This document shows positions 8,467-23,923 of a stretch of DNA of 24,083 nt, in pieces. Below the pieces are notes generated by a model that saw only the letters and a program-made list of their open reading frames with translations, made no database searches and had not been told where the DNA came from. How positions within the stretch are numbered: the stretch's first letter is position 1; every line of letters starts with the position of its first letter. Origin of the DNA: a virus. The translations under genes were made by a program, and so were the position numbers. The stretch covers positions 1 to 24,083 of the IMG/VR virus record IMGVR_UViG_3300046012_000895; one strand, 5' to 3'.

Positions 8467-8484
8467 TTTAATTCTCCTTTACAA

Positions 8485-8557: not shown

Positions 8558-8565
8558 AGTTAGAA

Positions 8566-10590: not shown

Positions 10591-10620
10591 GGACAAATAA
10601 AGAATTAAAGCTCTAACTCT

Positions 10621-10647
10621 TCATTATAATACGTGTTTATTCTGCGA
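10621..10647 (-). promoter_or_regulatory. CGCA-N14-TATAATGA promoter (copy at 10.6 kb)
   Basis: The minus strand has CGCA (10646-10643), 14 bases, then TATAAT (10628-10623) and GA. There is no TTGACA -35 box. It lies inside the 3' end of a small ORF (10624-10764) and drives the gene at 10539. It shares fixed spacing with the other six sites. Confidence 0.75.
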
Positions 10648-10764
10648 TTCGTCTTTTTTCTTATTATCTGAACCAAGAGGAATTTCTTTTTCTATATGTT
10701 TTGCGTATGTATCCGCAAGTTGTTGTTCTATAGGTTTCCAAGATTTTTTAGAATTCTTTTTCAT
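10624..10764 (-). CDS. Possible small charged protein
   Basis: The 46-residue ORF from ATG 10764 is lysine-rich (MKKNSKKSWKPIEQQLADTY...) and ends within the promoter at 10621-10647. It has no ribosome binding site. Its ATG forms part of a TATAATGA string that may be chance or the -10 of a weak promoter, which would imply a leaderless mRNA. It is the only plausible ORF in the 10621-10857 stretch. It may not be translated. Confidence 0.35.
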   Translation of the reverse strand: MKKNSKKSWKPIEQQLADTYAKHIEKEIPLGSDNKKKDESQNKHVL

Positions 10765-10857
10765 TATAATCGTGATTTATAGATTGAAATCGATATTCGA
10801 TACTTATAAGGTAATCTAATTAATTTATGCCATTTCATTATTTGCATTCATGTTATC

Positions 10858-11058
10858 TTAAATCTGATTATCTGGATTTAATAAATCAACAGAACCAGTT
10901 GTGTTTGTGACAACACTAGCAGATGTAATATTATTACCATTTTGAGCTTTGAGACTTTCAACCAAAGCCATTGATTCCCCAACAATCACACGTTCTAATG
11001 CTTCTTTTTCATCACCAGAAAGATCATCATGTCCATTAATATTCACAGTCCAAGTCAT
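10858..11058 (-). CDS. Conserved small phage protein, function unknown
   Basis: The 66-residue protein has the pattern MTWTVNINGHDDLSGDEKEA, with a helix around ALERVIVGESMALVESLK and an end rich in T, S and V (ITSASVVTNTTGSVDLL). Similar small phage proteins are familiar to me but have no known function. AGGAGG stands just before the ATG at 11058. It is followed by 93 bases without a supported gene (10765-10857), apart from an 8-codon ORF. Confidence 0.7.
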   Translation of the reverse strand: MTWTVNINGHDDLSGDEKEALERVIVGESMALVESLKAQNGNNITSASVVTNTTGSVDLLNPDNQI

Positions 11059-11074
11059 GAAAACCTCCTGTTAT

Positions 11075-11212
11075 TTACTTCTTTTTCGCATGTTGACTAG
11101 CTCGAATTGCTCGACCTTGTTTGGCAGCTTTTGCTTTAGCTCCCTTACCACGATAGGTCTTCCCCGAACTACCGTATTTGTAACCACCTTTAGTTTTTCT
11201 TACCGGAGACAT
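11075..11212 (-). CDS. Small highly basic protein
   Basis: The 45-residue protein is almost entirely lysine, arginine, glycine and alanine (MSPVRKTKGGYKYGSSGK then YRGKGAKAKAAKQGRAIRAS). It probably binds nucleic acid or packages with DNA, but this is inference from composition. Its ATG overlaps the stop of the lysozyme-like gene as TAATG. It has no fold signature. Confidence 0.65.
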   Translation of the reverse strand: MSPVRKTKGGYKYGSSGKTYRGKGAKAKAAKQGRAIRASQHAKKK

Positions 11213-11586
11213 TATCTTAATCCACAATATCTAGCTGTGTTTGGCCATGGATCCCAACCACGTGAAAAATATCCATGTAGACCCGCAAGTAATTGAGCCC
11301 ATATTGGCCAATGATCTGCTGTACCCCATTTTTTTGAGAAATATATTTTATGCACATGTGGTGTGTGTTTTGCTACTCTTATCCAACCATAGGTTGCTTG
11401 AAAGCTTAAATCCATTTGTAATCCACCCCAATAGGGTGGATCAGGATCAAACCAAGAGCCCTCGAATGAATGAATGCAAAACAACCCACGAGTTATATAA
11501 CTTTGATGTTTTTTAGCTTGGGCTGTCGATGTCATGACTAGTCCTAAAGTAAAAACTAGTGCACTTAGTGCGATCAGCTTACGCAA
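11212..11586 (-). CDS. Secreted lysozyme/transglycosylase-like protein
   Basis: The 124-residue protein starts with a signal peptide (about 1-24: KL, a hydrophobic core LSALVFTLGLVM, then AQA cleavage). The mature domain has IHSFEGSW with a likely catalytic Glu, DPPYWGGLQMDLSF, and WPNTARYCGL at the end. I recall this arrangement from resuscitation-promoting-factor or goose-type lysozyme-like proteins of Actinobacteria and their phages. The expected substrate is peptidoglycan in the host cell wall. I choose the TTG at 11586, which has AAGGAG seven bases upstream, over the GTG at 11655. It lies just downstream of a holin-like gene. Catalytic activity is inferred. Confidence 0.72.
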   Translation of the reverse strand: MRKLIALSALVFTLGLVMTSTAQAKKHQSYITRGLFCIHSFEGSWFDPDPPYWGGLQMDLSFQATYGWIRVAKHTPHVHKIYFSKKWGTADHWPIWAQLLAGLHGYFSRGWDPWPNTARYCGLR

Positions 11587-11610
11587 AACAAATCTCCTTG
11601 ATGGTTTACA

Positions 11611-11736
11611 CAAACTAATATCTAATTTTTGGGTTTTAAGCTGTCTAATAGACACTCCTTATAACCACTTAGCCTAATTATAAGTCGCAGAATTTTCCAC
11701 ATCATCCCACTCAAAACCCAAACTAATATCTAATTT
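11611..11736. repeat. 18-bp direct repeat around the leader of the lysozyme-like gene
   Basis: CAAACTAATATCTAATTT occurs exactly at 11611-11628 and 11719-11736. One copy lies just after the holin-like gene (stop at 11738) and one about 25 bases before the lysozyme-like start. The space between them holds an A/T-rich leader with a TATAAT (around 11677-11682). The two copies could be regulator sites. Confidence 0.6.
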
Positions 11737-11737
11737 A

Positions 11738-12061
11738 CTACCGAACTACTGGACTACTATCATTCTTTGGACCAGTGTTTCCAGACGTACTTCCTTCGAT
11801 AGCTGGAACAATCCCGACCGGCTTCCACAAACCCTTATAGCTAGCGATTGCAGTAACTAGAATCAACAGTGTACTACTTACCCAATCGTGCCAACTCCAG
11901 CCTCCGTGCTGAATCAGTACAGTTCCGATTGCTGCCCCAACGCAAGCAACAAACGTTACTACAGACCGAAGTTCTGCCGTCCAGCCTGGCTGCTGAACAA
12001 CAGCAATCAAATGCGGCATAAAGAACCCTACGATTAGAGCCCACATAGCAGCATTATTCAT
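11738..12061 (-). CDS. Holin-like three-span membrane protein
   Basis: The 107-residue protein has hydrophobic segments at about 6-22, 34-50 and 62-79, separated by short loops. A polar serine/asparagine-rich tail follows (EGSTSGNTGPKNDSSPVVR). The MxxALIVGFFMPHLIAVVQQP start and the YKGLWKP segment resemble phage holins of this type, from memory. It would form membrane lesions or pores at lysis, near the secreted wall hydrolase gene. Its ATG (12061-12059) directly abuts the previous stop. A holin call by topology is not proof. Confidence 0.65.
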   Translation of the reverse strand: MNNAAMWALIVGFFMPHLIAVVQQPGWTAELRSVVTFVACVGAAIGTVLIQHGGWSWHDWVSSTLLILVTAIASYKGLWKPVGIVPAIEGSTSGNTGPKNDSSPVVR

Positions 12062-12382
12062 CTAACTCGTCTCCTCTACCTTGTCGAAGTTTGCCTGGAA
12101 AGCCTTGGTCGTATAGACCTTATATCCGCGCTCCGTGTAAAGAATCCAGTCTCCTACGAATGCCTTCGTCTGTCTTGGGTTCTTCGGGTTGTGAACACGA
12201 ACATGTATATACTGTTTAGAGGGTTCGACTTCGGCAGATAAGTCGACGTTTGTTTCGTCAATATTGTGGATCTCGCCAAAACACCATCTCGCAACATCTG
12301 CGAAATTTTCCTCACTTACCTGTACAGCATCAACAAATAAAGGCTTACGAACATACTTTTCAGTTATACTTGTATTTTCCAT
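12062..12382 (-). CDS. Conserved phage protein, function unknown
   Basis: The 106-residue protein has stretches (YVRKPLFVDAVQV, YIHVRVHNPKNPRQTKAFVGDW and GYKVYTTKAF) that I recall from many phage proteins of unknown function. The pattern is a compact alpha/beta domain without catalytic residues I can name. GAGGAAC precedes the ATG at 12382. It lies between the small membrane protein and the holin-like gene, possibly in one transcript from the replication block. Confidence 0.75.
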   Translation of the reverse strand: MENTSITEKYVRKPLFVDAVQVSEENFADVARWCFGEIHNIDETNVDLSAEVEPSKQYIHVRVHNPKNPRQTKAFVGDWILYTERGYKVYTTKAFQANFDKVEETS

Positions 12383-12388
12383 GTTCCT

Positions 12389-12493
12389 CTACTCGGGTTG
12401 ATTTTGACGATTACGTATACTACCTAAATAATAACCAAATGCGACACTGAACAGAATCAAGATTGCCGTGACAAAGATTATTACGAGAATCAT
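12389..12493 (-). CDS. Small single-span membrane protein
   Basis: The 34-residue protein is mostly one membrane helix (ILVIIFVTAILILFSVAFGYYL) with a short basic tail (GSIRNRQNQPE). The ATG at 12493 overlaps the stop of the ssDNA-binding-type gene as ATGA. Tiny membrane proteins are frequent in this window. The role is unknown. Confidence 0.65.
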   Translation of the reverse strand: MILVIIFVTAILILFSVAFGYYLGSIRNRQNQPE

Positions 12494-12960
12494 GATGTCT
12501 GGTCTAGTTCACCGTACTTACGCTCTAACTCATCTTCCTCGATAGTTACATATAGACTCTGCAAATAAGCCTTAACTCCGCTCTTACCATTCACAGTCCA
12601 TTCGTAAGGGCGTACAATTAGATCGACATTGACAATTGTCGCCCAATCAAGCATCTCAACCTGAGTATCATCTATATTAGTGCGACCCCGTGACGTAATC
12701 ATTACAATTCTGGGTGGCCGACCCTTATAACTTACCGAGACTGGTAGATATGCTTGCGGTGTTTCTTCCTCGTCTTCGCCACGAGGTGGTAACCATTTCA
12801 CATTCCAGTTATCTTCCGCCATCGCTGTGGCCACTGCATCATCAAGTAGGACAGCGAAGTTACGATCACCCTCGCGATTGTACTTACCTTCTTTGCCCGA
12901 GAAATTACGGAAGATAATTCGCACACCTTCCATTAATACAGTATTATCCTGAGGTGGCAT
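12490..12960 (-). CDS. Probable phage ssDNA-binding protein
   Basis: The 156-residue protein carries NTVLMEGVRIIFRNFSGKEG, GDRNFAVLLDD, NVKWLPPR, GRPPRIVMITSRGRT and VNVDLIVRPYEW, with a strongly acidic C-terminal half (TIEEDELERKYGELDQ). Together these suggest an OB-fold single-stranded-DNA-binding protein of a kind familiar from phages with this polymerase family. The acidic tail is typical of SSB partner recruitment. It lies four small genes after the polymerase gene, which fits coating of replication intermediates. I choose the ATG at 12960, eight bases after AAGGAG, instead of the TTG at 13002. Homology is from memory. Confidence 0.65.
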   Translation of the reverse strand: MPPQDNTVLMEGVRIIFRNFSGKEGKYNREGDRNFAVLLDDAVATAMAEDNWNVKWLPPRGEDEEETPQAYLPVSVSYKGRPPRIVMITSRGRTNIDDTQVEMLDWATIVNVDLIVRPYEWTVNGKSGVKAYLQSLYVTIEEDELERKYGELDQTS

Positions 12961-13096
12961 CTTCTGTTTCTCCTTTATCTTCTCCACGGAGAATTGTCTC
13001 AATAAACTCCCTCGAATAGGTGTGAGATGCCAAAACTCTAATAGCTCTTTCTATTCGATCTAGACGTCTTTCAATTTCAGTTTTAGGCTCTGCCAT
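12944..13096 (-). CDS. Small charged protein of unknown function
   Basis: The 50-residue protein (MAEPKTEIERRLDRIERAIR...) is helical with a heptad-like charge pattern, suggesting a short coiled coil. The ATG at 13096 overlaps the previous stop as TGATG. Its 3' end overlaps the ssDNA-binding-type gene by 17 bases. It could help assemble the replication proteins; that is inferred from position only. Confidence 0.6.
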   Translation of the reverse strand: MAEPKTEIERRLDRIERAIRVLASHTYSREFIETILRGEDKGETEDATSG

Positions 13097-13356
13097 CAGT
13101 CAGGTACCTTAACCTTATCTCGATTATCACGCTGCCAGTTGATGAAATCACTGATTACCGAACCAACATCTTCATACCAGGAAAATAATTTCTCTGCTCC
13201 AATTTTCGATCCGTCACGTACCATTTTGCGATAAGATTGAATTGTCTTAACCGAGAATCTATCTTGCGCTCTGATAATAAAGATTGGTTCATCTTCCGGA
13301 ATATCTAAAAGCTGTTTAACTTTATTATATGTTTCACTATCCCGATGTACACCCAT
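13096..13356 (-). CDS. Small phage protein, function unknown
   Basis: The 86-residue protein includes ETYNKVKQLLDIPEDEPIFI and RAQDRFSVKTIQSYRKMV, a helical fold with a conserved-looking EPIFI-RAQD segment that I recall from similar phage proteins. No catalytic motif is present. The ATG at 13356 has GGAG and overlaps the preceding stop as TAATG; an in-frame start at 13392 would overlap the earlier gene and is rejected. It is encoded between the polymerase and the ssDNA-binding-type gene. Confidence 0.7.
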   Translation of the reverse strand: MGVHRDSETYNKVKQLLDIPEDEPIFIIRAQDRFSVKTIQSYRKMVRDGSKIGAEKLFSWYEDVGSVISDFINWQRDNRDKVKVPD

Positions 13357-13532
13357 TATTTCTCCTTCAGAGCACGTACTCGAGTTGCACATTCTTCACA
13401 TAGATCTAACAATGTATGTGCTCCGGTAGAATATCCAATAAAAATAGGACGTGCACCAGCGGCTAATTCAATGATGCGAAATGTTGCCACCACATCACGA
13501 TCTGGATGATTATCACATTTTATTAGTTTCAT
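13356..13532 (-). CDS. Small cysteine-containing protein
   Basis: The 58-residue protein has CDNHPDRD (6-13) and LCEECATRV (44-52). A C...H/C...CxxC pattern of this type could hold one zinc ion. The ATG at 13532 overlaps the preceding stop as ATGA and its stop overlaps the next ATG as TAATG, so it belongs to the polymerase operon. The specific role is not known. Confidence 0.65.
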   Translation of the reverse strand: MKLIKCDNHPDRDVVATFRIIELAAGARPIFIGYSTGAHTLLDLCEECATRVRALKEK

Positions 13533-13729
13533 ACTTCCTCCACATGAGATTTTAGTTTAAATCTACGAGTATCATCTTTTTTAACTACAATGGATTCCCC
13601 CAAATAGGGTGGAAGACTTGGCAACATTTTTTCATTAAATGAGTCAATATCTTCTTCATCAGTAGTTTCTAATATCTCCATACTAATTTCTTTGCCACGA
13701 GTAATTGAAAAAATTAAAAATGTGGTCAA
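13529..13729 (-). CDS. Small acidic protein after the polymerase
   Basis: The 66-residue protein is acidic in its first half (MEILETTDEEDIDSFNEKML) and basic at the end. The reading starts at TTG 13729, whose TTGA overlaps the polymerase TGA. A methionine further in (17th residue, MEIL) may be the true start. It has no known motif. Translation is likely coupled to the polymerase gene. Confidence 0.55.
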   Translation of the reverse strand: MTTFLIFSITRGKEISMEILETTDEEDIDSFNEKMLPSLPPYLGESIVVKKDDTRRFKLKSHVEEV

Positions 13730-16700
13730 TTTACAAACTCCTCAAAAGAGCCGAATTTTTCGATTGTCTTGACAGCTTCATCCTTTAATTTTTCAAAATA
13801 AGACATATTGATTTTTAGATCCGGAATAGTTTTTGCTATATCAGCATCGATCCAACGATAACCTTTGGTTCCAGTTACTGCGTAGAATCGTCCTTCTTTG
13901 ACTCGATAGAGAGTGCCCCCGTCTTCTTGTACAGGTACGAAGCGGCCAGCACGCCCAAGGTGGCGCATGTTGCTAAGATCAGGTTCTTCATCTTTATCAT
14001 ATTCCTTTCGATCAAGATACATTGTTCCCTGTGTTACATTTCTTGTCTCACAGAAATCATCAAAAGTGAGATCTTCACCAGAGAATAATGTTTTGAATAC
14101 ATAGGGATGTTGAAATTGAGCTCCTACAGCAGTCCATTGATTTCCATCACGAGCAATATACACAGCATCATTGACTAGGCAGAATTTATCAAATGTTTTC
14201 TCGTGCTCGAATTCATAACCATAACGTTCACCATGCTTGATCACAAATTTAATCGATTTGGGGGAGGCATTGGGTATTTTAACGGAGTCTGTCTTAATAT
14301 GCACCACATCATAACCCGTATCCTTTAAATCATGTTTTAGATCGATCATATATAAAGCACCACGCTTGGCAACGATATTATCTTTATTGCGAGGATCTCG
14401 AAATGGATTGGGAAAACTCGCTGAAGTTAAACCATAAATGGAGTTGATCACAATTTTCAAGGCATAAGCGAGTTCGTCTGCTCCTTCTTCATTTTCTAAA
14501 TAAGGAACCAGATGTCCATCCAGCATTTTTCTGGCTAGAGCATAATCATGACGTTTGATAGCCAGGCGGGCTTCTTTGAGATCACTGAATTTAGTTGTGT
14601 ACTTACCGAAGAGATTGAGGATCTCAATTGTGGTTGGGTGCATAGAAGCCACGTCAAGTAAAGCAACGTCTGTGTAGATACCTGGCTCGGCATAAACATA
14701 TCCACCTTCACCGGGATTCTCACCACGATAGGAGCTTTTTCCAGCGTCAAAAGTATATCCATTAAATTCCTCACTTAAATCAGTATAAACAAATTGTTTT
14801 TGAGGATTTTTATCTTTGCCGAAAATAATTTCAGCAGTATGCCTCTGAGTTGTGTCGTTGATAGTTAAGCCACTTAATTCTGCCAAAATTTGCCGGGCAA
14901 CGAAATCTTCCCAACGATTTTCTAAGACAGCTTCTGTTGCTATTACATCATTGACACAATACTCAACCACTTCAAGCCAATCTTCTTCATCCACTGGTTG
15001 ATCTAAGGGTAGATCAATTTCCATGTGATGAATACCAAGATCAATTTCAAACATCTTCAAGCTTTTTTTAATCGAGCTAATATCCCAAATATCAGCATAA
15101 GACAAGTTATATGCTTGAGCAAACATAACATTGCGATTATTCTCGATAATAATTTGCCGTGTCAATTCATGAATTTGCTCTACAGTGTAACCAAGAATCG
15201 CGGCATACAAAATATGATTGTCATAACGACGATTATAAAAACCAACTAATTTTAATTTTGTCAAAGCTTCGACTTCTGCTTGACTAGGATTGATCATCCG
15301 AACAACCGTGTTATCGCCCCGAAATTTCCAGCAAATAACAAAGAGGTTTGGATAACTCTCAATATCAAAAATAACTAATCGATCATCACTAACTTTTATG
15401 CTTTTATCTTTATCTGAACCAACTTCTGATTCAGATTGAAACTTCATATTCTGGACAATTTTCAGACAAGTGGATGCTTGATTAGTACTGTTGTTAGCAA
15501 AAGCCATCAGTCTCGACCGAAGATCAGAAACGTCATATTTCAAACCATTTTTATTAGCCTCTTCGAGAATATAAGCAATAAAATCAATCGATGGTTTAGT
15601 ACCAGGATGAATTTCTTTGCGTAAGTTGCGTTCGATTAATTCACGAAGACCTTTTTCACTGGTAATAGTCTTTCCTTTTAGCATCTTCTCCTTCTTCGGT
15701 CGAAGAGGAAGACCACTAGTCAGAATCGACACTGGTACCGAATTACAGCGAGTTAATTTTCGTCTTAATGCTGCATCACCAGGATAGGATTTTATCTCGA
15801 TTCCTTCTGAATAAACAAGTGCTAATTCAGTAGGATCTCCGGGATATTCATAATGAAGATGCACACCTTGGCCAGATTGACTGAGTTCGGCATAGGTCGG
15901 TTGCCATTTGCTAGCAGCTTCTAGATTGCGCTCCAACCCACTGGTACCATTGGTGGATTTTAGATCAAAGTCGATAACTATATGTTTTTCTGGTACCTTT
16001 ACATAATGTAATCGAGATGTGTCAATATCTAAAAGTGTAGATTTTACCTTGGACCAAGTTCGGCTCGGAGTCCCCTTCTTGTTAGCATATTGAGCATATT
16101 GTTCCGCCAGATAGTCGTCAAGAAGAGAAGTAGTTTCATCCACGACAAGAGAAAACGCAGGTAAGTCTTCGTCATTCTCTTTAGGAATCTTAAATTTCTC
16201 CGCGTTGAATCCTTCATAAAGACTACGTATTGTTTCACCATCTATTTCACCTCGATCTTTGAATTCATCAAAGTAATCACGAAGTTCTTCCCGAATTTTA
16301 TATTGCGGTAAAGGTCTGTTAATTCCGGTTTCCTCACAAAATTCTTTATACAAACCATAAGCTTGTTTTAAAGTTGTGTAATTTTGTGACTTGAAGACAT
16401 CGTAATATGCTTCGATAAAATTAAAGAAAATATCGGTCTGCAACATCATTGTCAATGGCCGATATCCATTATAATAATTTTTACCCATGCTCAAATAGAC
16501 TTTGAGACAATGAGATGCAATAGCCCCTAGTTCGAAATTTACTTGGCTAATTAAAGTATTATAACGTCTAACGGGTAATCTGACCCCAGTTGGATTGATA
16601 TCAATTAATCGACGAATGATTCCAGACTTGGCATCAGTTATCTTGACGGGTTGATTTGTACCGATAAACAAGAGGGCGTAAGCTTTTGCAGTATAACTCG

Positions 16701-17481: not shown

Positions 17482-17512
17482 CTAGCCAGTGACCTCCTTC
17501 CTCGCAATTTAG

Positions 17513-18058
17513 CTAGGAGGTTTCGTTTTGAATTATTTCGTTGACATAGGCATTTAACTGATACCATATTTCAACTTTAGTTTGATCTTCCTCGGGAAAA
17601 AGTAGTGGGAAGAAACCGCCTTTACCATTTCGTTCATAGGTCCGCCAAATTAAGGTTTGGACAATTTCATTAACTCCAGCTAACTTTTCTCTATCTAAAG
17701 GATCATAGAAATGATTTAAGCCAAGATTATCAATTAGTCGCCAAGCCCAGCCCGGAGCTTCTCCCCCCGCAACAAAAGAAAGAATTCGACTAACAGCTAT
17801 TATAATTTCTAGAATAGAAACATATTCCTTGAATTCTAATTCCGGAAAATCATTTGGAAGATCAACCGCATATCTGAATTCAGTTCTTAAATCTATTCCA
17901 TCTTGGATGCGATTGTCATCACCAGGAATCATCCAAACAAATTCAATGGCATGTAAATGTTCAAGTAATTGATTGAATGTTTTTTTAAAATTTCTGGGAA
18001 ATTCAATCTGAGAAACTAACCATTTAAAATAGGGTTCATCCTGGTTCACTGGAATCAA
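17513..18058 (-). CDS. Conserved phage protein, function unknown
   Basis: The 181-residue protein has recognisable conserved stretches (IEFVWMIPGDDNRIQDGIDLR, LIWRTYERNGKGGFFPL and TKVEIWYQLNAYVNE), which I recall from unknown proteins near the polymerase in many phages. No enzyme signature is seen. The start is unclear: TTG at 18058 is the longest, and GTG at 18049 is the alternative; both overlap the preceding gene. It ends 31 bases before the polymerase start. Confidence 0.72.
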   Translation of the reverse strand: MIPVNQDEPYFKWLVSQIEFPRNFKKTFNQLLEHLHAIEFVWMIPGDDNRIQDGIDLRTEFRYAVDLPNDFPELEFKEYVSILEIIIAVSRILSFVAGGEAPGWAWRLIDNLGLNHFYDPLDREKLAGVNEIVQTLIWRTYERNGKGGFFPLLFPEEDQTKVEIWYQLNAYVNEIIQNETS

Positions 18059-18779
18059 AACCTAACACTTCTTCATCCCAACTTTTTGGAATCTGTTCAA
18101 TCACAATATCAAGTTCTAATTCGGGATTTCGCACATATACCAATTCATCACTGTATGGTCGAGAGCGAAGTTGATCAAGAAGTTTTTCACCAACCAGGTC
18201 TTCTCTATTAGTGAGAATATTTTGTTTATCTGCTTCATCAACTAAAGTATCATCTCCAGTAAAATATAGATATGATACTCTCGAATAGCCGCTCTTATTT
18301 AAATGAAAGTCATTCTGATTAATAAGTATGACATGATCATCAGCAGTTAACGTTTCACGACGAGTTGATACCGATGAAGGCTTGGGTGGATTAACTGGAA
18401 CCGAGGGACGAATGGATCTAACATTAGGTTCTGCTGCTGGATCCTCAAGACGTGAATAATCTAATCCTGTTTCTTTTTCGGGAGTATATCCTCTTTCTCG
18501 AACAATTTCTTCAACAGATTCCTTATCCTGAGCTTCTGCAGCCAGGATTTTTTTCTGATAATGTTCACGAATTGCGGAAATTTCTTGCTCAGCTTCCTCA
18601 AAAATCTCAACTCGAAGCTTCTTTTTACTATAATGATAACCGATATAAAAGCCAATTGTGACACCAATTCCCAGACCAATTAAACCAGAACCAATTACTT
18701 TGTTATCAAGTTTTCGAGTTATAGTTGCAGCCTGCTCGAGCTCTTCAGCTACTGTTTCAGTCAATGCCCCAGTTGCCAT
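18036..18779 (-). CDS. Membrane-anchored phage protein with coiled tail
   Basis: The 247-residue protein has one glycine-rich membrane segment at about 28-50 (GSGLIGLGIGVTIGFYIGYHY), then a lysine/glutamate-rich coiled region (about 54-95). A soluble C-terminal domain follows (TADDHVILINQNDFHLN, SYLYFTGDDTL). It is similar in plan to other membrane proteins in this segment. GGAGAGG is well spaced before the ATG at 18779, and the start overlaps the preceding gene by 19 bases. It may be part of a membrane-associated replication or assembly platform, which is an inference. Confidence 0.7.
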   Translation of the reverse strand: MATGALTETVAEELEQAATITRKLDNKVIGSGLIGLGIGVTIGFYIGYHYSKKKLRVEIFEEAEQEISAIREHYQKKILAAEAQDKESVEEIVRERGYTPEKETGLDYSRLEDPAAEPNVRSIRPSVPVNPPKPSSVSTRRETLTADDHVILINQNDFHLNKSGYSRVSYLYFTGDDTLVDEADKQNILTNREDLVGEKLLDQLRSRPYSDELVYVRNPELELDIVIEQIPKSWDEEVLGFDSSEPG

Positions 18780-19675
18780 GACAAATCCTCTCCAATTTGC
18801 TCAATTTTATCATAAATAAGACCGTCTACATTAAAATCACATAAAACGGCACCATCACGGCCATTAACAAAATCGCGAGAATTTTCACTCTGACCTTCAA
18901 AAACACCAAAGCTAATATAATTATCAGTTGAACTATCGTGAGATAAGATCCAACCAACAACTGAACCAGCCTTGGATCTAGGCATTCCCAAGCGATCATA
19001 TACTTCATTCAAAAATACATGTCCTCGAGCCTTCAGCAAATCGTTAGCATAATTTTGCTGACACTTAAGGAAAAACAAATTTACTTCGGGATCTTTACTC
19101 CAAGAAGGACTGAATGGATCGAAGAATCTAGCATAACCAGATGCTTCACCAGTTATTCGTGTAATTTCCTTCTTTTTCTTTCCTTCACCAACAGTTACTT
19201 GTTCAGAATCAAAACGAAAATCTCGATCCTGCTCTTCACCATATTTTTCAATCACTCGTCCGCGATATCTTGTGAAGGCTTCATCAAGAGTCGTATACGC
19301 TGCAGTAATTGCTGCATTTCTCTGAGTAAGAATTCGATGCGAACTAGTAAGAGCAGCAATCCCAATGCCAGTAACAATAACAGCAGGGAAATATAAACGT
19401 CCAATTGCTACTCCAGTCTGAAAACGAACAAGAGATAGATCATGTTGACGATCTTTTTCAGTATAATTACCATCTTCAAAATTATGAACTTTATTCATTT
19501 TTATTGTGGCTTCATCTAGAACAGAATCCATTTTTAAAGTTGCGCGACAAGCTAAAACTGTACCACTCACTACGCTCACAACGCCAACTCCAAAAAGAAT
19601 ATTTGGAGAAGACTTCTGAAGAAGTAACGCTTTGCGGCCCAGCTTAGTGGTAATTACTGCTGGAACTAGATTCAT
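18761..19675 (-). CDS. Two-span phage membrane protein (DUF6353-like), paralog of 21620-22417
   Basis: The 304-residue protein has hydrophobic segments at about 26-43 and 95-111, each followed by basic or charged stretches. Shared with the 21620-22417 protein are an early SS/SP..IL.G.GVV...RA..K.....VLD.A block and a later A...Y...V.E..GE.QD block (for example RVIEKYGEEQD here). I recall this pattern from DUF6353-type phage proteins of unknown function. It presumably sits in the host membrane. GGGAG precedes the ATG. No enzymatic residues are visible. Confidence 0.7.
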   Translation of the reverse strand: MNLVPAVITTKLGRKALLLQKSSPNILFGVGVVSVVSGTVLACRATLKMDSVLDEATIKMNKVHNFEDGNYTEKDRQHDLSLVRFQTGVAIGRLYFPAVIVTGIGIAALTSSHRILTQRNAAITAAYTTLDEAFTRYRGRVIEKYGEEQDRDFRFDSEQVTVGEGKKKKEITRITGEASGYARFFDPFSPSWSKDPEVNLFFLKCQQNYANDLLKARGHVFLNEVYDRLGMPRSKAGSVVGWILSHDSSTDNYISFGVFEGQSENSRDFVNGRDGAVLCDFNVDGLIYDKIEQIGEDLSWQLGH

Positions 19676-19703
19676 TATAACTCCCTTTTTTGGAAAATGT
19701 CAG

Positions 19704-19877
19704 CTATTTGAACTGTAAAACCTTGAATTGAATATTTGCTGCATCTTCCTTTAAATTTTGAATCTTTTTTATATGGGTTTTATTACTAGAAGTATTTGGT
19801 AATAAATTGAGATAAAAATCACACATTTCTTCAACACGTCGTGCAAAATCTTTAATATCAATTTGTTCCACCCACAT
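19704..19877 (-). CDS. Small helical protein, function unknown
   Basis: The 57-residue protein (MWVEQIDIKDFARRVEEMCD...) is charged and helical. Its ATG at 19877 overlaps the previous ORF stop as TGATG, the usual coupling here. It precedes the DUF6353-like gene by about 28 bases. No family is recognised. Confidence 0.6.
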   Translation of the reverse strand: MWVEQIDIKDFARRVEEMCDFYLNLLPNTSSNKTHIKKIQNLKEDAANIQFKVLQFK

Positions 19878-20008
19878 CAATATTCTTCTTTATTTTCTGG
19901 ATTCTCCAATACACCTTTAGTATGTTCCATAGCAGCCTTATAAATTTCAGATACAGTTTCATTTTTAGTTGAAAGGCGTGGGATCCGGGAGATCCAACAT
20001 GTAACCAT
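19877..20008 (-). CDS. Possible small protein, start and frame uncertain
   Basis: The C-terminal part (TKNETVSEIYKAAMEHTKGV) reads like coding sequence and ends in a TGATG overlap with the next gene. No convincing start codon exists after the end of the preceding gene, which overlaps the first 44 bases. The ATG at 20008 gives 43 residues, while an internal ATG gives only 17. The other frame (ending at 19858) is lysine/isoleucine-rich noise. A frameshift in the sequence is also possible. Confidence 0.4.
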   Translation of the reverse strand: MVTCWISRIPRLSTKNETVSEIYKAAMEHTKGVLENPENKEEY

Positions 20009-20597
20009 CGCGGACTCGAGAAACCCCAGCTCCCCGAAGATCGCTCCAACCCCACTTATGATCGGTATGATTAGAGGGAAGACCAACCAACTCGTAGAGG
20101 TCTGCAACTGTTGCTGATTCATAACGACTCACCAGGTCAAATAATCGGTCGATTACTTCTTCGGCATCTGGACGTGATTCTAATACAATCTCGTCAAAAT
20201 CATGTCGAGCTCGAGCCATTCGACTCATTGCTCTTTGTGGACCAGCCATTCTATTTCCACCCATAGCATAACGATTATAGCTAACATACCCAGTTGGTCC
20301 AGATTGTGGAGGTGTTGATCCTCGTCGACGAGAATTGCCAAAAATTAATTTTTCAATTCCTCCTGATCCAGCTTCCCAAAGCATATCTCGCAATGTTGGA
20401 AGCAAAATATCAAAGGCAACATATCTTACGGACGATTTTAGATCACCAGCAATAAATGTATCTCTCAATTGCTTTCGAAGAGACCTTTTCTTTCTAATTG
20501 CTTCTCCGGAAGTAACTTTTTCAATATTTTTACCTTCAAGATCACCGCTTAGTTTTTTACTTGCTTCACTATTCGGCGGAAAATTTGTAGAATCCAT
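19965..20597 (-). CDS. Conserved phage protein with DUF-type C-terminal domain
   Basis: The 210-residue protein has a charged N-terminus (KKRSLRKQLRDTFIAGDLKS), a glycine/arginine-rich middle (RYAMGGNRMAGPQRAMSRMA) and a conserved-looking C-terminus (AEEVIDRLFDLVSRYE, HTDHKWGWSDLRGAGVSRVR). I recall the last part from many phage proteins of unknown role, some next to membrane proteins. AGGA lies 6 bases before the ATG at 20597, shortly after a terminator. Function is unknown. Confidence 0.72.
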   Translation of the reverse strand: MDSTNFPPNSEASKKLSGDLEGKNIEKVTSGEAIRKKRSLRKQLRDTFIAGDLKSSVRYVAFDILLPTLRDMLWEAGSGGIEKLIFGNSRRRGSTPPQSGPTGYVSYNRYAMGGNRMAGPQRAMSRMARARHDFDEIVLESRPDAEEVIDRLFDLVSRYESATVADLYELVGLPSNHTDHKWGWSDLRGAGVSRVRDGYMLDLPDPTPFN

Positions 20598-20616
20598 TTA
20601 TATCCTAACTTTTGAC

Positions 20617-20650
20617 AAAAAGAGAGTACCAGTAGTTGGCACTCTCCTTT
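20617..20650 (-). terminator. Intrinsic terminator after the small membrane protein gene
   Basis: On the minus strand GAGAGTGCC (20646-20638) pairs with GGTACTCTC (20630-20622) around a 7-base loop. AAAG stands before the stem and TTTTT follows. It separates the gene at 20657-20920 from the 20597 gene, which then needs its own promoter or read-through. Confidence 0.8.
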
Positions 20651-20656
20651 ATTTAC

Positions 20657-20920
20657 TTATGTAGTAGGAACTTTCTGCTCATCTTCCTGATTCTTCTCTT
20701 GCCTATGCCAATCAACAAGCTCATCGATCGTTCTATTGACATGATTTGAAGCTTGCTCGACAATCATTGATCCCAGCACAAGACCACCGGCATTAACCAA
20801 AAATCTCTGAGATCCAGTTAAAACAGTGGTATTATTCTTGACAATGTCACCAACAACTTTTGACACACCAAGAGCTGATACAACATTGGCCGCTAACTTG
20901 GCGGAAGTAAGTGAAAGCAT
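20657..20920 (-). CDS. Small phage membrane protein
   Basis: The 87-residue protein (MLSLTSAKLAANVVSALGVS...) has an amphipathic N-terminal helix, a hydrophobic segment near 41-56 and a charged, glutamine/glutamate-rich tail (WHRQEKNQEDEQKV). Similar short phage proteins are familiar, function unknown. AAGGAG precedes the ATG, and the promoter at 20951-20977 starts transcription about 25 bases earlier. A terminator follows, so it is a monocistronic unit. Confidence 0.72.
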   Translation of the reverse strand: MLSLTSAKLAANVVSALGVSKVVGDIVKNNTTVLTGSQRFLVNAGGLVLGSMIVEQASNHVNRTIDELVDWHRQEKNQEDEQKVPTT

Positions 20921-20950
20921 TTCAACTCCTTAAAAAAATATAATGGGTCT

Positions 20951-20977
20951 CTATTATAATAGATGTTTATATTGCGG
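20951..20977 (-). promoter_or_regulatory. CGCA-N14-TATAAT promoter (copy at 20.95 kb)
   Basis: CGCA (20976-20973), 14 bases, TATAAT (20958-20953), then AGA. The CGCA lies within the last codons of the 20967-21434 gene (the GCA ATA TAA region), and the box drives the small membrane protein gene starting at 20920. Confidence 0.75.
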
Positions 20978-21434
20978 TTGAATCTTTTTCAACTTCTTCA
21001 TTATTGGGGATATCCGGAGCAGGTACTAACTTTGGATTTGTTTCCTGTTCAGCAATTTTTGCTGCTTCTTCGACCATTCCCGCCGGAACAATACCATTGA
21101 TAAAGTCCGCAGCACTATCAGCGTCTGTAACTAAGTCCATAAAAATGGTGGAATAAGCTTCTGAAGATTCGAACTCTTCGCGAATCTGCTGATTCTTAAT
21201 AAATCTACGTCCATCGTCCGAACGCTTTCCATAAGATCTAAGAAGAATATCCTTAAATGTCGTTATAATCTCTTTACCATCGTTAGAAGCAACAATCTTT
21301 TTTAGATGATCAGCCATACCGCCATCTACACTAAGTTCCATTTCAGTTAATTCAGCTTTGGAAAGATTGAAGTAACAATCTTCCTCCACCTCCTCACCAT
21401 TAAAATCTGTATATTTAATTGTTTTCTTTAGCAC
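20967..21434 (-). CDS. Conserved phage protein, possible tail assembly chaperone
   Basis: The 155-residue protein contains the stretch KKTIKYTDFNGEEVEEDCYF, then FNLSKAELTEMELSVDGG, YGKRSDDGRRFIKN and a soluble helical remainder. From memory, many phages have proteins of this form, sometimes annotated as tail assembly chaperone, but I am not sure of that role. The start is GTG (21434), with GAGAGG upstream, overlapping the end of the previous small membrane protein. The acidic C-terminus (NNEEVEKDSTAI) is disordered-looking. Confidence 0.7.
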   Translation of the reverse strand: MLKKTIKYTDFNGEEVEEDCYFNLSKAELTEMELSVDGGMADHLKKIVASNDGKEIITTFKDILLRSYGKRSDDGRRFIKNQQIREEFESSEAYSTIFMDLVTDADSAADFINGIVPAGMVEEAAKIAEQETNPKLVPAPDIPNNEEVEKDSTAI

Positions 21435-21573
21435 TTTTTTCCTCTCTAAAACCTACAAATAAACAAGTTAAGCCAAGAGCAATAATACTGAACAATTGAA
21501 AAACATGGCCAAAACTTCCATAAGCACCAGCACAAGCAATTGTTATAAGTACTAGACCCAATAATGGGTTCAT
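21415..21573 (-). CDS. Small membrane protein
   Basis: The 52-residue protein consists of hydrophobic segments (LLGLVLITIACAGAYGSFG and LFSIIALGLTCLFVGF) with a charged end (REEKSAKENN), a two-span arrangement. AGGAG precedes the ATG at 21573. Its 3' end overlaps the GTG start of the next gene. Function is unknown. Confidence 0.65.
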   Translation of the reverse strand: MNPLLGLVLITIACAGAYGSFGHVFQLFSIIALGLTCLFVGFREEKSAKENN

Positions 21574-21581
21574 TGATTCTC

Positions 21582-21620
21582 CTAAATATCGTCACATCCT
21601 TGTGGCCAATCACCCTTCAT
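21582..21620 (-). CDS. 12-residue ORF between two genes
   Basis: ATG at 21620 overlaps the stop of the DUF6353-like gene as TAATG and encodes MKGDWPQGCDDI before a TAG. The next gene ribosome binding site starts at its stop. It may be a translated micropeptide or only a spacer. Confidence 0.3.
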   Translation of the reverse strand: MKGDWPQGCDDI

Positions 21621-22417
21621 TATTCGTGCAGCTGCCAATAACTGGCGAAAGGGTGGGGTACAAAATCCACCACCATACATGGCCGATTATCTTGAGACAT
21701 TGTTGCCGAGATTTTAATCTCGATCAACTTATCCGGATTCCAACCAACTTCATCGGAATATGCAGTAGGAGCAAGCCCCAGCTCATCATAAAACTCACTT
21801 AAACTAGCTCCCATATGATTATTGATAATATGATTAATACGATTCTCGGCACGCTTGAGCTCTTCCATAGTACTCATAAAATATCGACCAGTTAGAGCAT
21901 CAAGACAAAGCACTTGTCCATCGCCGGTGATTACAAGCTCTTTTCCTGGCGGAGATTTATCTACACGATTCTGAGCAATTTCATCGCGAAGCTTTGTATC
22001 TTGGCGCTCACCCAATCTCTCTACAACTTTTTCTCTATATTCTTTCAATGCACGCTCAGAGATTCCAGAAGCTACTGTTAACGCCATTACCTTTTTCGCA
22101 TCAATACGATGAGCAAAAATAATAGCAGTAATAGTAACAATCCCCGAACCGGTTGGTGGTAGATAGTAACGCCAAGTAAGCTTAAAGACGTCAAAGCGAG
22201 ACAAATTTCGATAAACTGGAATATCACTTCCACCGGTTAAATCACTTTCCATAATATCATTTTTAGCATCATCAAGTACTCCTGCAGCTTTGAATGATGC
22301 ACGACCAGTTAAATAAGCAGTACCAACAGTCCCTACAACTCCAATTCCAGTTAGAATAGTAGATGAATTTTGATTTAACAAGAATTTTGCCTTATGAGCA
22401 AGACTAGAAAAATACAT
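21620..22417 (-). CDS. Two-span phage membrane protein (DUF6353-like), paralog of 18761-19675
   Basis: The 265-residue protein has hydrophobic segments at about 20-37 (TILTGIGVVGTVGTAYL) and 90-102 (GSGIVTITAIIFA). Its C-terminal region is rich in charged residues (SERALKEYREKVVERLGERQ). It matches the order and key residues of the 18761-19675 protein but is strongly diverged and shorter. The precise role is unknown. Its ATG at 22417 is ten bases after the stop of the preceding gene. Confidence 0.72.
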   Translation of the reverse strand: MYFSSLAHKAKFLLNQNSSTILTGIGVVGTVGTAYLTGRASFKAAGVLDDAKNDIMESDLTGGSDIPVYRNLSRFDVFKLTWRYYLPPTGSGIVTITAIIFAHRIDAKKVMALTVASGISERALKEYREKVVERLGERQDTKLRDEIAQNRVDKSPPGKELVITGDGQVLCLDALTGRYFMSTMEELKRAENRINHIINNHMGASLSEFYDELGLAPTAYSDEVGWNPDKLIEIKISATMSQDNRPCMVVDFVPHPFASYWQLHE

Positions 22418-22426
22418 AATGCCCTT

Positions 22427-22603
22427 TCAACTTTGTGGATATGGCGAACGATCAATACCAGTAGATTTGGGATTTTGTCTTAAAGCGCGTCTTTCTGCCT
22501 GTTCTCGAGTATGAGCTCGAATAAATACCGAATGAGATAAACCTCCGGGATACTTTAAAACAATTCTATGGAGTCTTTTTTGTTTCATAGCTAACATAAC
22601 CAT
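22427..22603 (-). CDS. Small basic protein
   Basis: The 58-residue protein has many arginine, lysine and histidine residues (KRLHRIVLKYPGG, FIRAHTREQAERRALRQNP). It has a polar, DNA- or RNA-binding-like profile but no fold I can name. Its ATG overlaps the previous stop as TAATG. It forms a pair with the membrane protein upstream. Confidence 0.6.
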   Translation of the reverse strand: MVMLAMKQKRLHRIVLKYPGGLSHSVFIRAHTREQAERRALRQNPKSTGIDRSPYPQS

Positions 22604-22737
22604 TAATAAGATCTTCGACGCATTTCACGCACGAACACCCAGATAAGCCAAAGACCACCGGTGAAAATTGTCATAATGCAATCGCCGATAAATTTCCAAA
22701 ATCCATAGGTTTTCTTTTCCACGACATACAAAATCAT
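22603..22737 (-). CDS. Small membrane protein
   Basis: The 44-residue protein begins MILYVVEKKTYGFWKFIGDC, then has a hydrophobic helix (MTIFTGGLWLIWVFV) and a basic end. I recall close relatives from actinophages; no function is known. GGAGGTGA precedes the ATG. It is transcribed from the promoter at 22815-22841 with a leader of about 75 bases. Confidence 0.72.
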   Translation of the reverse strand: MILYVVEKKTYGFWKFIGDCIMTIFTGGLWLIWVFVREMRRRSY

Positions 22738-22750
22738 ATTCACCTCCTTC

Positions 22751-22816
22751 AAAAAAATTTAGGGCGAGGATGGCATCGTGTGAGCGTCTTCATCTAATGA
22801 TGAAAGTATCCATCCT
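22751..22816 (-). promoter_or_regulatory. Structured leader before the 22603-22737 gene
   Basis: On the minus strand TTCATC-ATTA-GATGAA (22804-22789) is a perfect 6-bp hairpin. It is nested inside AGGATGG (22816-22810) pairing with CCATCCT (22773-22767), and TTTTTTT comes about 9 bases after. The outer 5' arm lies upstream of the expected transcription start of the promoter at 22815-22841. The whole fold would therefore form only in read-through RNA. Confidence 0.4.
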
Positions 22817-22841
22817 ATTAAAGTGAATGTTTATTTTGCGA
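22815..22841 (-). promoter_or_regulatory. CGCA-N14-TTTAAT promoter (copy at 22.8 kb)
   Basis: CGCA (22840-22837), 14 bases, TTTAAT (22822-22817). It is the one copy whose -10 is TTTAAT instead of TATAAT. The CGCAAAATAA part coincides with the last codons and stop of the gene at 22831-22929. Confidence 0.65.
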
Positions 22842-22929
22842 ACCTTCTTTTAATACGTTCATCAAAAGCATTAATAATACCTTCGATGTAACCAATCCCG
22901 TACGCAATATAAAGAAGAATTTTCTTCAA
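22831..22929 (-). CDS. Small basic protein with amphipathic helix
   Basis: The 32-residue protein begins MKKILLYIAYGIGYIEGIIN and ends RIKRRFAK. It could be a membrane-associated helix. The start is TTG at 22929, six bases after GGAGG. It lies in a leader of about 70 bases from the promoter at 23001-23027. Its stop overlaps the next promoter. Function is unknown. Confidence 0.6.
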   Translation of the reverse strand: MKKILLYIAYGIGYIEGIINAFDERIKRRFAK

Positions 22930-23000
22930 TTTTCCTCCGAAGAAAAAATAAAAAAACAAACTAACAACTTACAACTAACATTGAGGATTACAGATTCACC

Positions 23001-23027
23001 TCATTATAGAGCATGTTTTTTCTGCGA
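23001..23027 (-). promoter_or_regulatory. CGCA-N14-TATAATGA promoter (copy at 23.0 kb)
   Basis: CGCA (23026-23023), 14 bases, TATAAT (23008-23003) and GA. It sits directly behind the terminator at 23027-23069 and drives the 22929 gene. Confidence 0.78.
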
Positions 23028-23069
23028 AAACAAAAAGGAAGTCCATGTATCTGATGGGACCTCCTTTTT
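23027..23069 (-). terminator. Intrinsic terminator, near-identical to the one at 23267-23310
   Basis: AAAAAGGAGGTCC (23069-23057) pairs with GGACTTCCTTTTT (23044-23032) over 13 positions, one a G-T wobble. The loop is CATCAGATACAT. The T-run and GTTTT continue into the promoter. Confidence 0.85.
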
Positions 23070-23075
23070 CCGAAA

Positions 23076-23216
23076 CTACCTACTGAAACGGGACTTCAGG
23101 TGACGACTGATCTTGACCGCACCCTGCACCGCATCAAGGGCCAAGTGAACGTACGCATACGTTACGAGGCCGCGAAAAGCGAGTCGGGTGATGGGATTAT
23201 AGACCAGTGTGGCCAT
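23076..23216 (-). CDS. Small basic phage protein
   Basis: The 46-residue protein begins MATLVYNPITRLAFRGLVTY and ends VKISRHLKSRFSR, amphipathic and basic. AAGAAAGGAA precedes the ATG at 23216. It is the only gene of the unit between the promoter at 23239-23265 and the terminator at 23027-23069. The G+C-rich codons differ from the neighbours. Function is unknown. Confidence 0.65.
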   Translation of the reverse strand: MATLVYNPITRLAFRGLVTYAYVHLALDAVQGAVKISRHLKSRFSR

Positions 23217-23238
23217 GAAAATTCCTTTCTTAGGGGTT

Positions 23239-23265
23239 TCATTATATGACATGTTTTTTCTGCGA
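23239..23265 (-). promoter_or_regulatory. CGCA-N14-TATAATGA promoter (copy at 23.2 kb)
   Basis: CGCA (23264-23261), 14 bases, TATAAT (23246-23241) and GA. It follows the terminator at 23267-23310 and drives the 23216 gene after a leader of about 25 bases. Confidence 0.78.
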
Positions 23266-23266
23266 A

Positions 23267-23310
23267 TAAAAACAAAAAGGAAGTCCGTGTATCTGATGGG
23301 ACTCCCTTTT
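23267..23310 (-). terminator. Intrinsic terminator, near-identical to the one at 23027-23069
   Basis: AAAAGGGAGTCC (23310-23299) pairs with GGACTTCCTTTT (23286-23275) over 12 positions with one wobble. The loop is CATCAGATACAC, and TTTTTGTTTTT follows. Confidence 0.85.
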
Positions 23311-23315
23311 CTGAG

Positions 23316-23429
23316 CTATGCAAACGACAGGGCGTGAACAATCATGCCGTACAACTCATGCAAACCAAGTGCGAATGCGCCGCCAAGGGCGGTCACAATC
23401 ACAAAGTGGCTTAAATGAACTTTAAACAT
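23316..23429 (-). CDS. Small single-span membrane protein
   Basis: The 37-residue protein (MFKVHLSHFVIVTALGGAFA...) is nearly all hydrophobic with histidines (LHELYGMIVHALSFA). AAAGGAG precedes the ATG at 23429. It is a monocistronic unit from the promoter at 23454-23480 to the terminator at 23267-23310. Function is unknown. Confidence 0.65.
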   Translation of the reverse strand: MFKVHLSHFVIVTALGGAFALGLHELYGMIVHALSFA

Positions 23430-23453
23430 GCGATTCTCCTTTGTGGAATAGCT

Positions 23454-23480
23454 TCATTATATACGATGTAATATCTGCGA
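23454..23480 (-). promoter_or_regulatory. CGCA-N14-TATAATGA promoter (copy at 23.45 kb)
   Basis: CGCA (23479-23476), 14 bases, TATAAT (23461-23456) and GA. The gene starts about 25 bases downstream at 23429. Confidence 0.75.
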
Positions 23481-23493
23481 GTTTGAGCAAAAA

Positions 23494-23508
23494 TTTCCCC
23501 CGGGGAAA
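23494..23508. other. GC-centred palindrome TTTCCCCCGGGGAAA
   Basis: A 15-base near-perfect palindrome with flanking A and T runs lies just upstream of the promoter at 23454-23480. It could act as a weak terminator on the minus strand (TTTCC/GGAAA stem then TTTTT) or as a protein site. There is no evidence to decide. Confidence 0.4.
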
Positions 23509-23535
23509 AAATTAAATTCAATGTTGAGAATGCGA

Positions 23536-23566
23536 GAAAAAATATGAAAGGCCGCGCAAAGCGGCC
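23536..23566 (-). terminator. Intrinsic terminator after the 23585-23875 gene
   Basis: GGCCGC-TTTGC-GCGGCC (23566-23550) is a perfect 6-bp GC stem, followed by TTTCATATTTTTT. It ends the transcription unit of the 23875 gene. Confidence 0.82.
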
Positions 23567-23584
23567 CCTCATATCTAAACTCTC

Positions 23585-23875
23585 TCAAGTTCTTGTGATT
23601 GGTCTTAGTAGTAACTGGAATGCTCTAGAAGTGATCACATTCACGTGTTCGTGCTTGACGACCATGATGATCCCCAGAAGATTTCCGAAGACAACGGCTA
23701 GAGTATCCCTACTTCCGAATTTGGATTTATCTTCTTCCTTTATCCGATGTAGAGAGACAAGTCTATCCAGTATCTTCAAATATTCTTCCGAGTTCACATC
23801 ATGACGAGCCAAGTCACGAAGACCATGAGCGATCTCTTTCTCGAGCAACTCAGTTATCTCACTTTTTCCAAACAT
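23585..23875 (-). CDS. Conserved small phage protein with membrane segment
   Basis: The 96-residue protein begins MFGKSEITELLEKEIAHGL and has a charged helical region to about 56. A hydrophobic segment at about 58-73 (TLAVVFGNLLGIIMVV) is followed by KHEHVNVITSRA. I recall relatives in many actinophages, with a conserved KHEHxNVITS stretch, function unknown. AAAGGAA precedes the ATG at 23875; the promoter at 23897-23923 lies about 25 bases before it and the terminator 23536-23566 after it. Confidence 0.75.
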   Translation of the reverse strand: MFGKSEITELLEKEIAHGLRDLARHDVNSEEYLKILDRLVSLHRIKEEDKSKFGSRDTLAVVFGNLLGIIMVVKHEHVNVITSRAFQLLLRPITRT

Positions 23876-23896
23876 AAGATTCCTTTCTGTAGAGTC

Positions 23897-23923
23897 TCAT
23901 TATAGTAAGTGTTTTACTTGCGA
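23897..23923 (-). promoter_or_regulatory. CGCA-N14-TATAATGA promoter (copy at 23.9 kb)
   Basis: CGCA (23922-23919), 14 bases, TATAAT (23904-23899) and GA. It overlaps the stop of the partial gene at 23914-24083 and drives the 23875 gene. Confidence 0.75.

Follow-up and report, generated by a model that had tools for sequence, protein, structure and literature searches.

Related Transcription Systems and the Locus Studied

Late genes of Bacillus phage SPbeta are transcribed by the phage RNA polymerase YonO, the promoter sequence of which was still to be determined (PMC5467207); for the polymerases of phage P23-45, short promoter motifs of their own were proposed (PMC10770324). We analyzed a stretch of 24,083 bases of the IMG/VR record IMGVR_UViG_3300046012_000895 (hereafter, the window), which encodes a single-chain RNA polymerase of the family phrog_4291 and contains repeated copies of a motif: CGCA, 14 bases, and then TATAAT or TTTAAT. 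These sites are most likely phage-specific promoters of the phage-encoded polymerase, which has an unusual built-in arrangement of helix-turn-helix (HTH) domains. No description of the motif was found in the literature searched (subscription literature lay outside the search); the word “promoter” was absent from the paper on Arthrobacter clusters AM/AU and from the paper on Scarif.

Like YonO, the polymerase of the window is a phage-encoded single chain of about 900 amino acids (aa) with a predicted two-barrel (double-psi) catalytic core. In contrast, the motif is matched in SPbeta only at noise level, and a profile of the present polymerases (A1) gave no match in SPbeta at E ≤ 1, i.e., sequence homology with the YonO family was not found; a distant relation to YonO is possible. 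The non-virion RNA polymerase of P23-45/P74-26 and QDE-1 are structural matches of the predicted model of our enzyme, yet the present enzymes differ in carrying two N-terminal HTH and one C-terminal HTH. The motifs of P23-45 are of one AT-rich and one GC-rich type tied to its enzymes, whereas the present motif consists of three fixed blocks.

Some promoters read by other means have a similar layout. T4 MotA/AsiA and mycobacterial PafBC are co-activators standing in for a missing −35 contact: in T4 middle promoters, a MotA box near −30 replaces the −35 element beside TATAAT, and in PafBC-dependent promoters, an activator element lies between −35 and −10 at a fixed distance from the −10 hexamer. 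Both differ from the present motif in sequence; moreover, the latter adds a second block at −20 to −18 to the layout of T4, and it is phage-specific, whereas PafBC serves a host regulon. The proteins scanned included no homologue of MotA or AsiA. Start-associated sequences and stoperators of mycobacteriophages are also short, repeated, and asymmetric, the former lying upstream of gene starts; however, their sequence is different and the present motif has an invariant spacing to −10.

The Motif in the Window

The recognised genes of the window were all located on the minus strand. An earlier note on this DNA had reported seven minus-strand sites with CGCA exactly 14 bases ahead of T[AT]TAAT. 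All seven were present, with hexamers ending at 10623, 20953, 22817, 23003, 23241, 23456, and 23899, two bases higher than they had been placed; an eighth site (element 2 in Table 1) had been missed. Thus, the pattern CGCA-N14-T[AT]TAAT was found eight times on the minus strand (six TATAAT and two TTTAAT) and never on the plus strand, and the reversed pattern gave no matches. The identical spacing was confirmed by a scan of spacings from 5 to 25, in which 14 gave eight matches and the only other match was at 11. The comparison with shuffled sequence that had been suggested gave a mean of 0.128 matches and a maximum of 2 in 500 dinucleotide shuffles of the window. An origin by chance or composition was ruled out by these shuffles, the spacing scan, and the strand control.

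Two further statements of the earlier note were correct in part. GA follows the hexamer at five of the eight sites, not at the other three. A small gene with a ribosome binding site is clearly situated downstream of the hexamers ending at 23899, 23456, 23241, and 20953, with the start codon 23–32 nucleotides (nt) away, but those ending at 23003, 22817, and 10623 are 73–83 nt from the nearest plausible start. Element 2 is possibly degenerate. Just after it, between two promoter elements, there is a hairpin, TTTCCCCGGGGGAAA, followed by a T-run (23508–23494, minus strand); a similar GGGGAAATTTT precedes the equivalent promoter in the related loci L059 and L060. This arrangement may therefore be a terminator/promoter unit.

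The Motif in Related Phages

The relatives of the window are phages of Streptomyces, Gordonia, Arthrobacter, Rhodococcus, Curtobacterium, and Microbacterium, as well as of Lactococcus and Faecalibacterium. With the RNA polymerase and DNA polymerase as queries, 132 related loci were gathered. CGCA-N14-TATAAT occurred in these loci 208 times in the sense and once in the antisense orientation, and every other spacing gave 0–3 occurrences. A logo was made of 195 distinct sites, in which CGCA and TATAAT stand at 100% by selection. T at −31 was found in 93% of the sites, the positions from −25 to −21 were A/T-rich, and A−20, C−19, and A−18 were found in 93%, 99%, and 86%, respectively; TATAAT was followed by G−6, A−5, R−4, and A−3 and then by a C-rich stretch. 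The full element is T(−31)CGCA–N6–ACA(−20..−18)–N5–TATAAT–GARA, without a −35 hexamer. A start codon preceded by a ribosome binding site was found for 183 of the 195 sites, at a median distance of 25 nt.

The same arrangement was obtained when the −10 hexamer was left out of the criterion. Sites selected by the box alone (TCGC[AG]N3WWWACA) had sense:antisense ratios of 95:0 in actinophages, 49:0 in Firmicute prophages, and 50:1 in metagenomic phages, and nearly all of them had a −10 hexamer at the fixed distance. By a per-genome model, 27 of 28 genomes carry 7 to 33 copies each, and 0–3 are in antisense. In annotated genomes, almost all copies were within the non-structural region. Both in Firmicute prophages and in phages infecting Streptomyces, Gordonia, Arthrobacter, Rhodococcus, and Curtobacterium, the genes that follow are early/replication genes. 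The endonuclease–exonuclease–polymerase operon, too, has a copy ahead of it in most relatives. Late promoters of the same type were not seen near structural genes at the left genome ends; the left-end candidate motifs TTGACATGAACC and TTGTATCGAAACTA were not repeated as a promoter class.

Deviating forms were found in several lineages. Lactococcus phages retained ACA and TATAAT or TATAGT, with CGCA replaced by TTTA (P118) or CACA (CHPC971), and the metagenomic phage G039 had CGTA in this position. The Faecalibacterium group had just one copy, which lies ahead of the polymerase operon; in FP_oengus and its relatives, the only convincing copy, also located there, had CGCG and TTTTAT. A search for further polymerases of the Lactococcus and Faecalibacterium types yielded only five loci.

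The absence of TTGACA from −35, noted earlier for the window, extends to the relatives: near-TTGACA sequences were found at 22 of 343 box sites in 28 genomes (6%) versus 11.6% of random positions. Near-consensus sigma-70 promoters (TTGACA/TATAAT) numbered 81 versus 82 by orientation in the same genomes; having no strand bias, they probably do not serve as the promoters of genomes that are, like these, largely one-directional. For these two reasons, the lacking −35 and the lack of a strand-biased TTGACA/TATAAT class, ordinary sigma-70 promoters were rejected.

Phage Origin of the Motif

The pattern TCGCA-N6-ACA-N5-TATAATGA was used for a database scan. It gave 95 matching stretches, mostly single and in unrelated phyla, in bacterial and archaeal genomes totalling 257 gigabases (Gb); the chance expectation, our own estimate from base counts alone, was about 120. 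In IMG/VR, the matches were at least as many as the scan could list. A host regulon was ruled out by this result, and an alternative host sigma factor is an unlikely reader because the motif is at chance level in these genomes. Three of the multi-hit contigs in metagenome-assembled genomes (of Bacilli, Ruminococcus, and Blautia) carry genes for both of these polymerases, RNA and DNA, and are therefore prophages or binned phages. As controls, we used phiC31, ArV1, GTE7, ReqiPine5, and sk1, phages of the same host genera without the RNA polymerase, together with SPbeta; a looser pattern had 0–1 matches in them versus 6–23 in the carriers. Since host genomes are at chance level and the control phages have at most one noise match each, the motif is a property of the phages and is phage-specific.

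These data also bear on the explanation by ordinary host promoters with an upstream similarity due to chance or composition. TATAAT is the commonest bacterial −10 hexamer, which would fit this explanation; the shuffle, strand, spacing, cross-genome, and host-genome controls exclude it, and we give it hardly any credence.

The RNA Polymerase and Other Genes Accompanying the Motif

Among the matches listed for IMG/VR records of at least 40 kilobases (kb) found by the motif alone, the DNA polymerase phrog_4210 was present in 27 of 27 and the RNA polymerase in 26 of 27. The exception, G087, which has the motif and the DNA polymerase, stops 4.0 kb past the helicase gene and also lacks the exonuclease; this record may be truncated. 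The RNA polymerase was encoded in 32 of 33 comparison genomes, the exception also lacking the neighboring genes. Window proteins found in at least 31 of the 33 genomes were the RNA polymerase, DNA polymerase, helicase, endonuclease, exonuclease, annealing protein, two DUF6353 proteins, and phrog_4079. Only the RNA polymerase among them has recognised HTH domains, a tandem pair at the N-terminus and one at the C-terminus. The N-terminal pair weakly resembles sigma factors (Pfam Sigma70_r4_2, E 1e-4, below the cut-off; SigL in PDB, E 0.015).

The composition of this set is relevant to another interpretation, in which the box is an operator of a phage repressor placed over ordinary sigma-70 promoters, so that early genes are jointly repressed. 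Many phages share operators among multiple early promoters, and some carriers of the motif are prophages. However, no shared repressor gene was found among the universal proteins, and an operator has no need of a 14-base spacing kept invariant in hundreds of sites; we consider this interpretation very improbable.

Judging by its sequence and modeled fold, the phrog_4291 protein is a two-barrel single-chain RNA polymerase. The DxDGD catalytic motif (ADFDGD) was invariant in 28 of 28 relatives, and the AlphaFold model (predicted local distance difference test score, pLDDT, of 80.6) had QDE-1 (2j7n, E 4.7e-9) and gp62 of Thermus phage P74 (8f5m, E 2.6e-7) as its top PDB matches in Foldseek. The enzyme is labeled “RNA-dependent RNA polymerase” in PHROG; from its enzyme class, it is presumably DNA-dependent. 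Short separate frames resembling its HTH region were found in G014 (33981–34151), Qui (W10, 51253–51465), and G086 (27214–27381); they match polymerase residues ~62–121 or, in Qui, 121–190. Such frames could encode stand-alone regulators competing for the same boxes.

The Probable Reader of the Element

The earlier note had suggested a non-standard factor as a possible reader of the block at about −30 to −18: a phage activator, an alternative sigma factor, or a phage RNA polymerase. The fixed spacing, strict orientation, and missing −35 support this suggestion, as do the absence of the motif from host genomes, its conservation across phages of two phyla, Actinobacteria and Firmicutes, and its co-occurrence with the polymerase. 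Among the three candidates, the data favour the phage RNA polymerase. We hold, with somewhat more confidence than doubt, that the sites are a phage-specific class of promoters for early/replication genes, read by the phage’s own single-chain two-barrel RNA polymerase.

The promoter would be composed of TCGCA (−31 to −27), ACA (−20 to −18), and TATAAT with the following GARA (−12 to −3). The N-terminal tandem HTH of the polymerase would contact CGCA and ACA, while the body of the enzyme would melt the TATAAT region, and transcription may start in or just after the conserved GARA. The blocks are centred near −28.5, −19, and −9.5, so that each is roughly a helical turn from the next and all are on the same face of the DNA; a single protein with a pair of HTH units and a melting site would suit this layout. 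A single polypeptide would then combine the core enzyme with a sigma factor, its specificity being built in via three HTH domains and portable between host phyla; on this broader proposal, our belief and doubt are evenly balanced.

The −10 hexamer is informative in this respect. In sigma-70 promoters, A at −11 is the most conserved base and T at −10 is less conserved. Actinophage sites had A−11 in 92% and T−7 in 97%. In Firmicute prophages, A−11 was present in 67% (T, C, or G in 33%) and both T−10 and T−7 in 100%, and hexamers such as TTTTAT and TCTTAT were found beside intact boxes. The Firmicute profile argues against the primary sigma factor as the sole reader; together with the missing −35 and the unbiased sigma-70-type sites, it favours the phage polymerase.

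Several observations weigh against the phage polymerase as the reader. TATAAT is a perfect sigma-70 −10 hexamer and, given the A−11 value of actinophages, the host RNA polymerase could read it. The sites precede early genes, whereas the role of YonO is in late genes (PMC5467207). As the motif lies ahead of the polymerase’s own operon in most relatives, the first polymerase molecules would have to enter with the DNA or come from weak transcription by the host; in the window itself, this operon has no clear copy of the box. Moreover, the genes of the RNA polymerase and the DNA polymerase are always found together, and co-occurrence therefore singles out neither; phrog_4079 is equally universal and unexplained. 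In a covariation test of polymerase residues against box letters, the top columns were those differing in one Lactococcus lineage only.

The main rival explanation draws on the same observations. According to it, the host holoenzyme reads TATAAT, a phage co-activator bound at −31 to −18 replaces the −35 contact, and the phage polymerase is kept for late genes. The perfect TATAAT and the purine-rich discriminator fit a primary sigma factor, as does A−11 of actinophages; the early genes served, against the late precedent of YonO, and the position of the box, similar to that in activator-bound spacer promoters, are also in line with it, and phrog_4079, universal and without an assigned function, is available as the activator. 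On the other hand, the Firmicute bases at −11 and invariant T−10 do not suit this explanation, and a single factor would need to fit the host polymerases of two phyla. Apart from the phage polymerase, no universal protein with an HTH was found, and the well-predicted C-terminal part of the phrog_4079 structure had no meaningful structural match, for which reason this protein was set aside as an activator in spite of its conservation in all 33 comparison genomes. We regard a co-activator as unlikely, though less so than the other alternatives.

Both enzymes could also act in turn, with weak initiation by the host holoenzyme at TATAAT immediately after infection, followed by the phage polymerase taking over the same sites via CGCA/ACA in positive feedback. 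Such dual reading accounts for the early-gene location, the near-perfect −10 of actinophages, the copy that most genomes have ahead of the polymerase operon, and the fact that no second oriented class of promoters was seen; TTTTAT and TCTTAT in Firmicute prophages are hard to fit, and we consider it improbable.

Other Features of the Window and Its Relatives

The window covers the replication half of the phage, encoding the primase/DNA polymerase, single-strand annealing protein, helicase, endonuclease, exonuclease, and phrog_4291 (Table 1). The other window features named here are also on the minus strand. DUF6353 (phrog_2152) is encoded by two copies (18761–19675 and 21620–22417), each present in nearly all relatives. 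Three tRNA genes for Lys, Met, and Leu (8484–8558, 8566–8639, and 9551–9634, respectively) were found, as well as a NUMOD4/HNH homing-endonuclease-like gene (4063–4566) between the helicase and the polymerase operon.

Table 1. Positions of the polymerase, accompanying genes, and putative promoter elements in the window.
Feature	Position	Strand	Details	Downstream start
Single-chain RNA polymerase, phrog_4291, 902 aa	294..3002	−	ADFDGD at residues 504–509; proposed promoter reader	
Tandem N-terminal HTH region of RNA polymerase	2658..2873	−	Residues ~44–115; weakly sigma-region-4-like	
C-terminal HTH of RNA polymerase	300..410	−	Residues ~865–901	
Exonuclease gene, phrog_3953	2999..3556	−	Directly upstream of RNA polymerase gene	
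Endonuclease gene	3501..3818	−	First of endonuclease–exonuclease–polymerase operon	
Primase/DNA polymerase, phrog_4210, 1251 aa	13726..17481	−	Hallmark accompanying the motif	
phrog_4079, 210 aa	19965..20597	−	No known domain; rival candidate promoter-reading factor; in 33/33 comparison genomes	
Putative promoter element 1	23895..23923	−	TCGCA-AGTAAAACACTTAC-TATAAT-GAGA; CGCA 23922–23919, −10 23904–23899	23 nt from hexamer to ATG of 96-aa open reading frame (ORF) 23585–23875 (phrog_5818)
Promoter-like element 2	23507..23535	−	TCGCA-TTCTCAACATTGAA-TTTAAT; CGCA 23534–23531, −10 23516–23511; ACA in register	Same gene as for element 3
Putative promoter element 3	23452..23480	−	TCGCA-GATATTACATCGTA-TATAAT-GAAG; −10 23461–23456	ATG 26 nt downstream (37-aa ORF 23316–23429)
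Putative promoter element 4	23237..23265	−	TCGCA-GAAAAAACATGTCA-TATAAT-GAAA; −10 23246–23241	ATG 24 nt downstream (46-aa ORF 23076–23216)
Putative promoter element 5	22999..23027	−	TCGCA-GAAAAAACATGCTC-TATAAT-GAGG; −10 23008–23003	No clear gene start nearby
Putative promoter element 6	22813..22841	−	TCGCA-AAATAAACATTCAC-TTTAAT-AGGA; −10 22822–22817	Nearest ORF start 22737, 79 nt off
Putative promoter element 7	20949..20977	−	CCGCA-ATATAAACATCTAT-TATAAT-AGAG; −10 20958–20953	32 nt from hexamer to ATG of 87-aa ORF 20657–20920
Putative promoter element 8	10619..10647	−	TCGCA-GAATAAACACGTAT-TATAAT-GAAG; −10 10628–10623; close copy in related locus L008	Nearest ORF start 10539, 83 nt off

Per-genome discovery of gapped words, swamped by codon bias, exposed a hexamer, ATATT[TC], in relatives but not in the window. 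It occurs almost only on the sense strand: 151 versus 1 in ReqiPepy6 (loci L158–L161), 107 versus 1 in Avazak (L162–L164 and L233), 122 versus 2 in OhMyWard (L190–L193), 94 versus 0 in DrGrey (L181–L183), and 210 versus 16 in G039 (L213–L215). The hexamer was found in all codon phases and between genes and was over-dispersed, with no gaps shorter than 60 nt in ReqiPepy6 versus 24 expected. It could act as a signal in transcription, RNA processing, or replication or recombination polarity.

The right genome ends of reference phages have a strongly conserved GGGGGAGGGG..TCTCGCAA..CCCCCC..TGCATCGCC, and CCCCGGGGG-AATTTTT is conserved at the left ends. This terminal structure, common to actinophages and, partly, Lactococcus phages, probably represents cos and packaging signals.

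Significance

YonO is the founding single-chain phage polymerase of its structural class, and its promoter was stated to be unknown (PMC5467207); the present motif supplies a defined sequence together with natural variants by the hundred. In cultivated phages of Streptomyces, Gordonia, Arthrobacter, and Lactococcus, the pairing of polymerase and promoter is directly testable. Should the polymerase read the motif without help, the two would make up a compact orthogonal transcription system in which an HTH pair replaces the sigma factor, and this would bear on how two-barrel polymerases gained promoter specificity. Otherwise, the motif would still reveal how transcription is programmed in a large group of phages annotated mostly as “hypothetical”.

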